A stretch of DNA of 64,000 nucleotides from Rhizobium terrae (GTDB lineage Bacteria; Pseudomonadota; Alphaproteobacteria; Rhizobiales; Rhizobiaceae): the NCBI RefSeq assembly GCF_003425685.1, contig NZ_QJKM01000017.1, positions 1 through 64,000 of the forward strand, written 5' to 3'. The notes under the pieces were generated by a model, which searched no databases, was not told the DNA's origin, and worked only from the letters and a program-made list of their open reading frames with translations. Each line of letters starts with the position of its first letter. The stretch's first letter is position 1. A program made the position numbers and the translations under genes. Below, one piece after another: positions 38,717-41,271 of this stretch.

Positions 38717-40273
38717 TCAGAACGCGGCGACCTTGGCGAGCGCCCGCTTTTCCCGGCGCCGCTGCACCGAGGAGGGGATGTTCATCGCCTCGCGATATTT
38801 CGCCACCGTCCGGCGGGCAAGCTCCACGCCGCCGTTCTTCAGGCCGATGACGATGTCGTCATCGGAGAGCACCGCTTCCGGCGTTTCCTGGGCGATAAGC
38901 TGGCGGATGCGGTGGCGCACGGCTTCCGCCGAATGGCTGTCGCCGCCTTCTTCCGCCGAGCCGATCGACACGGTGAAAAAATATTTGAGCTCGAACAGGC
39001 CGCGCGGTGTCAGCATGTATTTGTTGGAGGTGACGCGGCTCACCGTCGATTCATGCATCTTGATCGCTTCGGCGACGGTCTTGAGGTTGAGCGGCCGCAG
39101 GTGGTCGACGCCGTGCATCAGGAAGGCGTCCTGCTGGCGGACGATTTCGGCGGCCACCTTCATGATCGTTTTGGCGCGCTGGTCGAGACTGCGCGTCAGC
39201 CAGTTGGCGTTCTGCAGGCATTCCGACAGGAAATTGCTGTCCTCGCCGTTTTTGCGACAATGTTTCGAGACCGTCTGGAAATAGGCCTGGTTCACCAGCA
39301 CGCGCGGCAGCGTGTCGGGATTGAGCTCGACCATCCAGCTTCCGTCCGGCGCGGCGCGCACGATGATGTCGGGCGAAATCGTCTCGGAAGGGCCGCTTTC
39401 GAAACCGGCGCCGGGTTTCGGATTGAGATTGCGGATCTCCGCCAGCATATCGAGCAGGTCTTCGTCGTCGACGCCGCAGATTTTTCGAAGCGAGGCGAAA
39501 TCGCGCTTGGCCAGCAGATCGAGATGTTTGACGAGGGCGTCCATCGCCGGATCGAGCCTGTCCTTCTGGCGAAGCTGGATCGCCAGGCATTCGCTGAGCG
39601 AGCGGGCGAAGACGCCGGGCGGATCGAGGCTCTGCAGTGAGGTCAGGATGGCTTCCACGTCGCCGGCGCCCTTGCCGAGCCGGGCTGCGATCTCCGCGAT
39701 GCCGTCCTGCAGGTAACCGGCGTCGTCGAGCTGGTCGACCAGATGCTGGGCGACCAGCCGATCGGTCGCGCCAGTCATCAGGAAGGGGATCTGCTGGTTC
39801 AGATGGTCGCGCAGCGTCACATGGCCGGCGACGAAATCGTCGAGGTCGTAGTCCTCACCGGATTCGCCGCCCGGCATGGACTTCCATTGGCTCAGAAGTT
39901 CCGGCGCATCGGCACGGCGGGCCGGGCCGTCATCGGGAAAGACGTTCTCGAAGCCCGTGTCGAGATTGTCGCCCAGCCGTTCGGCGGTCGCCGGCGAGGA
40001 GCCTTCGTACCAGTCCCCATCGGGTGCCAGGGACGGCCTGCTCTCGCCGTCGCCGTTGGCACTGTCGAACGTGTCGTCCTCGAAGCCTGTTTCCGTGCCG
40101 CTTTCGCCGTCGCCTGCCGTAATTTCGAGCAGCGGGTTCTTCTCGACTTCCTGGGCGATGAACTGGTTGAGCTCGAAATGCGTCATCTGCAGCAGCTGAA
40201 TCGATTGCATCAGCTGCGGGGTCATCACCAGCGATTGGGTCTGCTTCAGGAAAAGGCCGGCGGATAAACCCAT
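38717..40273 (-). CDS. rpoN: RNA polymerase sigma-54 factor
   Basis: 518 residues from MGLSAGLFLKQTQSLVMTPQ. Region I (Gln/Leu-rich LMTPQLMQSIQLLQM-like activator segment), an acidic region II (about 50-130), the core-binding and HTH region III, and the RpoN box ARRTVAKYREAMNIPSS that contacts the -24 element. It directs nitrogen-fixation, nitrogen-assimilation and dicarboxylate genes with enhancer-binding proteins. Flanked by hpf and lptB as in other rhizobia. Its promoter region holds a sigma-54 site in opposite orientation. Confidence 0.97.
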   Translation of the reverse strand: MGLSAGLFLKQTQSLVMTPQLMQSIQLLQMTHFELNQFIAQEVEKNPLLEITAGDGESGTETGFEDDTFDSANGDGESRPSLAPDGDWYEGSSPATAERLGDNLDTGFENVFPDDGPARRADAPELLSQWKSMPGGESGEDYDLDDFVAGHVTLRDHLNQQIPFLMTGATDRLVAQHLVDQLDDAGYLQDGIAEIAARLGKGAGDVEAILTSLQSLDPPGVFARSLSECLAIQLRQKDRLDPAMDALVKHLDLLAKRDFASLRKICGVDDEDLLDMLAEIRNLNPKPGAGFESGPSETISPDIIVRAAPDGSWMVELNPDTLPRVLVNQAYFQTVSKHCRKNGEDSNFLSECLQNANWLTRSLDQRAKTIMKVAAEIVRQQDAFLMHGVDHLRPLNLKTVAEAIKMHESTVSRVTSNKYMLTPRGLFELKYFFTVSIGSAEEGGDSHSAEAVRHRIRQLIAQETPEAVLSDDDIVIGLKNGGVELARRTVAKYREAMNIPSSVQRRREKRALAKVAAF

Positions 40274-40371: not shown

Positions 40372-40386
40372 TGGCACAAGAATTGC
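40372..40386 (+). promoter_or_regulatory. Sigma-54 -24/-12 element opposing rpoN
   Basis: TGGCAC (40372-40377), AAGAA, TTGC (40383-40386), a perfect match to TGGCAC-N5-TTGC. It reads on the plus strand, away from rpoN, and would start transcription near 40398 toward the 3' end of lptB. Its -12 part overlaps the putative -10 of the rpoN promoter. Confidence 0.75.
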
Positions 40387-40408
40387 TTTTTTGAAAGATT
40401 TGGTCAAG
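40380..40408 (-). promoter_or_regulatory. Candidate housekeeping promoter of rpoN
   Basis: On the minus strand: CTTGAC (40403-40408), exactly 17 bases, then CAATTC (40380-40385). The -35 is perfect for rhizobia, the -10 matches CTATAT at 3 of 6. It would give rpoN a leader of about 100 bases. Confidence 0.55.
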
Positions 40409-40464
40409 CGCTGCGGTGCGGGAAAGGTAAACTTCTTTGACGCACCGCCGCAAGGCAGATCGGC

Positions 40465-41271
40465 CTAGAGGCTGAACTTGTCGCCGAGATAGAGACGGCG
40501 GACATCCGGGTTGTTGACGATGTCGTCGGCCCGGCCATGCGTCAGAACTTCGCCCGCGTGGATGATATAGGCCCGGTCGATGAGGCCGAGCGTCTCGCGC
40601 ACGTTGTGGTCCGTTATCAGAACGCCGATCCCGCGCGCCGTCAAGTGGCGAACGAGGTTCTGGATGTCGGAAACCGAGATGGGATCGACGCCGGCGAAAG
40701 GTTCGTCGAGCAGCATGAAGGCCGGATCGGTGGCCAGCGCTCGGGCGATTTCCAGGCGGCGACGTTCGCCGCCGGAAAGCGCCACGGCTGCGGACTTCCG
40801 GAGCTGGCTGATATGGAATTCCTCCAAGAGCTCGTCCAGCTTGCTTTCCCGCTTGTCCCTGTCCGGCTGGTGCACTTCCAGCACCGCGCGGATATTTTCC
40901 TCGACCGTCAGGCCGCGGAAGATCGAGGCTTCTTGCGGCAGATAGCCGACGCCGAGGCGGGCGCGGCGATACATCGGCATGCGGGTAACCTCGTTACCGT
41001 TGATCGCGATCATGCCTTCGTCCACCGGAACGAGCCCGGTGATCATGTAAAAGCAGGTGGTCTTGCCGGCGCCGTTCGGACCGAGGAGGCCGACGGCCTC
41101 GCCGCGGCGCACGACCAGAGACACGCCATTGACGACGCGGCGCGTATCATAGGTCTTCGAAAGCCCATGCGCGACGAGCGTGCCTTCGTAGCGCGCTTTA
41201 TCGCGTACCACGAAAGGCTCGGGCGCGGACGGCTTCCTTGCCGATAGACTGGAGAGCAGCGGTATTTTCAC
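40465..41271 (-). CDS. lptB: LPS export ABC transporter ATP-binding protein
   Basis: A 268-residue ATPase that powers extraction of lipopolysaccharide from the inner membrane by LptB2FG. Walker A GPNGAGKTT, signature ALSGGERRR, Walker B FMLLDEPFAGVDP and the His loop ITDHNVRE. About 25 extra N-terminal residues compared with E. coli LptB (241). Follows lptA by 12 bases and precedes rpoN, a widespread arrangement. Confidence 0.96.
   Translation of the reverse strand: MKIPLLSSLSARKPSAPEPFVVRDKARYEGTLVAHGLSKTYDTRRVVNGVSLVVRRGEAVGLLGPNGAGKTTCFYMITGLVPVDEGMIAINGNEVTRMPMYRRARLGVGYLPQEASIFRGLTVEENIRAVLEVHQPDRDKRESKLDELLEEFHISQLRKSAAVALSGGERRRLEIARALATDPAFMLLDEPFAGVDPISVSDIQNLVRHLTARGIGVLITDHNVRETLGLIDRAYIIHAGEVLTHGRADDIVNNPDVRRLYLGDKFSL

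Follow-up and report, generated by a model that had tools for sequence, protein, structure and literature searches.

The gene rpoN encodes sigma-54, a protein that switches bacterial genes, and is probably governed by a negative feedback that needs no activator, in which the closed complex of sigma-54 polymerase would occlude the housekeeping promoter of rpoN itself; we put the probability of this reading at roughly three in four. A sigma-54 site facing away from rpoN appears to be maintained where it overlaps the gene's housekeeping promoter, which is of the sigma-70 type. When sigma-54 is plentiful, its polymerase would park on this site as a stable closed complex, oriented in the wrong direction for rpoN, and would thereby keep sigma-70 polymerase off the rpoN promoter; when sigma-54 falls, the site would empty and rpoN could be transcribed. 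We infer three things here: that rpoN is transcribed from the -35 and -10 elements named below, that binding represses this promoter, and that it does so without an activator. The away-facing site looks like the physical basis of the rpoN self-repression reported for rhizobia.

The rpoN upstream region in the window

The original prediction, made on the window (the whole analysed stretch of 64 kb), had placed TGGCAC-N5-TTGC at 40372-40386 on the plus strand of the rpoN upstream region, facing away from the gene, and a minus-strand CTTGAC-N17-CAATTC sharing bases with the sigma-54 -12 element; sequence, positions and overlap were all recovered as described (Table 1). The plus-strand element carries GG at -24 and GC at -12, and CTTGAC (40403-40408) and CAATTC (40380-40385) are separated by 17 bases. 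One copy of rpoN was found in the genome, and the gene order on from rpoN in the window continues with a hibernation-factor gene and ptsN. Between CTTGAC and lptB lies an inverted repeat (40413-40448), with the arms GCGGTGCG (40413-40420) and CGCACCGC (40441-40448) and no T run.

Table 1. Coordinates of rpoN, its upstream neighbour and the elements between them
Feature	Position	Strand	Basis or remark
Sigma-54 -24/-12 type site, TGGCAC-AAGAA-TTGC	40372..40386	+	Sequence reading; points away from rpoN, toward lptB
TGGCAC half of the site	40372-40377	+	Followed by N5, then TTGC at 40383-40386
CTTGAC, putative -35 of the rpoN housekeeping promoter	40403..40408	-	Sequence; TTGAC-GCAA distance kept in relatives
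CAATTCT, putative -10	40379..40385	-	Overlaps the sigma-54 -12 element; AATTCT in TATAAT register
rpoN (sigma-54), 518 aa	38717..40273	-	TIGR02395, 426 bits; ATG at 40273
lptB, upstream neighbour of rpoN	40465..41271	-	TIGR04406, 378.6 bits; stop codon at 40465

The exact motif matches once in the 64-kb window (0.16 expected), and so does a relaxed form (TTGCW, at most one mismatch; 1.73 expected). Over the whole genome of 7.0 Mb, the exact motif has 15 matches, about as many as the 16 of a reversed-pattern control. Taken by itself, the motif is thus no more frequent than chance predicts, and its rarity was dropped as evidence. The significance of the site rests on its place and its conservation, not on motif counts.

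Conservation and orientation in the family and order

Conservation in relatives had been proposed as a check on the prediction, and when this was run, the site and its orientation proved to be kept through most of the family of the window. The strict form was defined as GCAA-N5-G[GT]NCCA on the rpoN strand within 300 bases upstream, and the core form as GCAA-N8-CCA on the same strand. The family sample comprised 165 upstream regions from 166 genomes with an rpoN match (one contig ended), one of them only 79 bases long, and was assembled in two batches, 135 regions first and then 30 that are mostly more divergent. The strict away-facing site was found in 138/165 regions and the core site in 150/165. 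Within the first batch, 123 of the 135 regions contained the strict form, compared with none in the reversed control and a mean of 0.58 (maximum 3) in 50 Markov shuffles of the same regions, and 134 contained the core form, compared with two in the reversed control; the later batch yielded 15/30 strict and 16/30 core sites. A strict site facing rpoN turned up once in each batch (1/135 and 1/30). The sole member of the first batch without even the core site is L153.

From the other families of the order, 105 regions were read, out of 144 matched genomes; 38 contained the strict away-facing site, 42 the core site and 11 a site facing rpoN. Counted by family, 13 out of the 46 other family codes had the strict away-facing site, four had only the rpoN-facing site and 29 had neither. 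Outside the order, the strict site was absent from all 28 regions (the best-scoring 28 of 108 matched genomes), and no site was found upstream of rpoN in the class loci L200 and L205. The 80 named loci divide into 55 with the strict away-facing site, 10 with the core only, two with only the rpoN-facing site and 13 with none, one of these last having just 4 bases upstream. Those with the strict site include Rhizobium freirei, Agrobacterium pusense, Ensifer sp. BR816, Mesorhizobium tamadayense, Bradyrhizobium japonicum SZCCT0153 and Rhodopseudomonas palustris XCP, and the rpoN-facing site occurs in Devosia pacifica and a Phreatobacter.

Sites facing rpoN (for example TGGCATGAACCTTGC) were seen at L165, L167, L170, L173, L217, L241, L242, L281, L356, L375 and L383, the last belonging to the family of the window. 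They could each be either a brake placed the other way round or a genuine promoter from which sigma-54 polymerase transcribes rpoN. On a tree of 145 RpoN rows, built with fasttree, containing long branches and serving only to count changes, the rpoN-facing sites require at least two changes and all five labels require 10.

Second copies and genomes without rpoN were also inspected. The three rpoN2 copies L101, L102 and L103 (the second rpoN of G129, G127 and G133) have no site upstream, which agrees with reports that rpoN2 is controlled differently; the second family copies in G029, G064, G107 and G119 fall outside this comparison. A second rpoN copy from another family (L286) likewise has no site. 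Eight family genomes in which rpoN had no match also lack the site in the stretch that follows lptB; this is weak evidence, given the small size of most of them, and one (L296) offers just 140 bases there.

Overlap in two registers and the competing readings

The constant positions of the element are those of sigma-54 promoters, and TGGCAC-N5-TTGC, with its GG and GC, is the sigma-54 promoter consensus as quoted in a passage of PMC9977809. The N5 differs among the three groups A, B and C described below, with the variants TTTTT, AAGCC, GAGCC and GAATC by clade. The site is read as a sigma-54 element because the -24/-12 positions stay constant while N5 varies by clade, and a binding site for sigma-54 holoenzyme is the best reading of the conserved element.

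The regions with a strict site (215 of 355, giving 200 unique contexts, with the grouping made before the 30 late family regions) were grouped by the placement of TTGAC into A (99 unique contexts), B (43) and C (58, mostly from other families). In architecture A, which includes the window and Rhizobium/Agrobacterium/Ensifer-like sequences, the start of TTGAC precedes GCAA by 21 nt in 96/99 contexts, and in the Mesorhizobium-like architecture B it does so by exactly 7 nt in 43/43. The best-scoring -10 falls on the sigma-54 -12 element in 95/99 contexts of A and beyond the site, at +16 or +17, in 39/43 of B, counts that are not independent proof because the groups were set by TTGAC and the allowed spacing largely fixes the -10. 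With its -10 beyond the site, architecture B would have the sigma-54 site itself as the spacer between -35 and -10, and in both A and B the -24/-12 site lies, by sequence, inside the -35/-10 footprint. The T content of N5 is 90% in A, where these bases would double as the -10, compared with 6% in B. Scored as a -10, the B flank has a mean of 0.48 against a maximum of -1.63 in 200 shuffles; the A flank scores -0.90 against -1.76 for its shuffles, a smaller margin than that of B, and since it too exceeds its shuffles, the contrast between A and B is blurred. The N5 contrast and the B-flank score are evidence independent of the TTGAC grouping. In group C, no sigma-70 promoter could be linked to the site (23/58, against a control mean of 19.8 and maximum of 23). 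In the window, the putative -35 is conserved and the putative -10 weak, AATTCT matching TATAAT at 3/6 positions, and a strict sigma-70 scan of both strands between 40200 and 40700 returned no promoter. For the window and group C the occlusion claim therefore rests on comparison, since no promoter was found by the scan in the former or tied to the site in the latter.

The same site could also be an active sigma-54 promoter driving a divergent transcript that runs antisense into the end of lptB, with the conservation of the site reflecting that RNA, which would possibly interfere with rpoN transcription. The full -24/-12 element and the orientation prevailing in the family would agree with this, and in a transcript starting near 40398 the lptB stop codon would be reached some 67 nt from the start. 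Against it, among the 22 columns beyond CTTGAC in architecture A none reaches 90%, the distance to the lptB stop spans 46-313 nt within A, no terminator-like site was detected on the near side, no Rfam match was obtained, and four other family codes have only the rpoN-facing site. We regard this reading as unlikely and retain it because a transcript need not be conserved. The original prediction had also raised the possibility of an antisense transcript into lptB; this part found no support in the terminator scan, the Rfam comparison or the columns beyond CTTGAC, and the occlusion part stands better, backed by a conserved away-facing overlap in two registers.

That the conserved bases are the housekeeping promoter of rpoN and nothing else, their likeness to a sigma-54 site being incidental, is very unlikely. 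In A the -10 would indeed use the same bases, and TTGAC is as well conserved as the site. However, the CCA at the -24 end falls outside the -10 in A, and GCAA-N5-GGGCCA is conserved in B where a sigma-70 promoter requires no sequence; moreover, a Bradyrhizobium RpoN binds its own promoter fragment, according to a passage of PMC13207237. Even less probable is that some other repressor binds here or that, in Bradyrhizobium-type genomes, the site forms one half of an inverted repeat acting in the DNA or in the mRNA leader. An opposed TGG-N8/9-TTGC does stand before the start codon in 11 out of 21 Bradyrhizobium-type regions; nevertheless, no second copy was seen in the window, and the conserved positions are the sigma-54 promoter positions quoted in PMC9977809. 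In Bradyrhizobium-type regions (L160, L337, L345, L346 and L351 among them), the away-facing site and an opposed copy just before the rpoN start make up an inverted repeat that could be a leader hairpin. Positive autoregulation, in which sigma-54 polymerase and an activator would start rpoN transcription from the site, is the least probable of all: it would suit the rpoN-directed sites in family codes f6, f20, f22 and f50 and a survey, seen in the relevant passage of PMC12316311, that reads rpoN sigma-54 promoters of several classes including alpha-proteobacteria as autoregulation, but the window and the majority of its family have the site facing away, and PMC3538637 states that R. leguminosarum rpoN is under negative autoregulation.

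Occlusion of the rpoN promoter by sigma-54 polymerase is favoured by the retention of site and orientation in the family together with a second overlap register in another clade. Besides the weak -10 and the results in the window and group C, further points count against it: 29 of the 46 other family codes have the site in neither orientation, the later family regions keep it in half, and the four family codes with only the rpoN-facing site would also fit activated sigma-54 transcription. In its widest form, the proposal is that an activator-free homeostat operates in the family and parts of the order with parked sigma-54 polymerase as the repressor, and that selection keeps the overlap and not the register or even the orientation, the site having moved (at least two registers) and come to face rpoN in at least two lineages while still acting as a brake; we advance this tentatively, at somewhat less than even odds. 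If occlusion is true, rhizobial rpoN autorepression would gain a physical basis open to testing with a two-base change, and the inactive closed complex, usually seen as awaiting its activator, would become a regulator itself. The site would then help to set the supply of sigma-54 to its dependent genes without a nitrogen-sensing activator.

Comparison with known systems

Negative autoregulation of rpoN occurs in R. etli as well as in R. leguminosarum. No description of an opposed, overlapping sigma-54 site at rpoN was found in the literature searched; Michiels 1998, Clark 2001 and Dombrecht 2002 may contain one, and the last reportedly ends with the suggestion that RpoN might work through interference with the DNA contacts or other binding of further proteins. 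The autorepression in rhizobia that the original prediction had mentioned is indeed stated for R. leguminosarum VF39SM, as cited in PMC3538637. Both rhizobial cases resemble the present one in the gene, the bacterial group and the predicted outcome; the passage in PMC3538637 on R. leguminosarum gives no site or mechanism, whereas a candidate site is offered here. The same source states that growth is restored by M. loti rpoN1 carrying 118 bp of the DNA upstream of it. A promoter inside this stretch would agree with that result, with transcription from the vector also possible. The prxS-rpoN2 operon is activated by NifA (PMC3538637) and, like the proposal here, places a sigma-54 gene under sigma-54 control; as described there, however, that control is positive and activator-dependent, and the three family rpoN2 regions here lack the site.

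Direct binding of RpoN upstream of rpoN, as predicted here, is described for Bradyrhizobium sp. DOA9, in which an EMSA shows purified RpoNc retarding a fragment of its own promoter, about 300 bp long (PMC13207237); in the part of that report concerned, the EMSA addresses the whole fragment, without a site, an orientation or repression. In Yersinia pseudotuberculosis, mutation of four out of five intragenic antisense-strand RpoN sites increased the expression of the opposite-strand gene, by a mechanism that its authors find unclear (PMC7657599, in the relevant passage); those sites are intragenic, whereas the site here lies at a putative promoter. The data in a passage of PMC4591121 are consistent with competition at intergenic sites and speak against roadblocks inside genes.

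The closest mechanistic parallel comes from E. coli, where sigma-54 competes with sigma-70 at overlapping sites (PMC4551910, which lists Zafar et al. 2014 among its references). As in the rpoN region, the -24/-12 site there overlaps the -35/-10 footprint, and the repressive sites have C at -12. The passage concerns tested sigma-70 promoters, those of argT, chaC, mdfA and patA, whereas the target here would be rpoN itself, as read from sequence; unlike the E. coli case as given in that passage, the overlap at rpoN is kept, in two registers, across a family. Both rpoN autorepression and the occlusion of promoters by sigma-54 polymerase have been published already, and the present contribution is a conserved element that connects the two.
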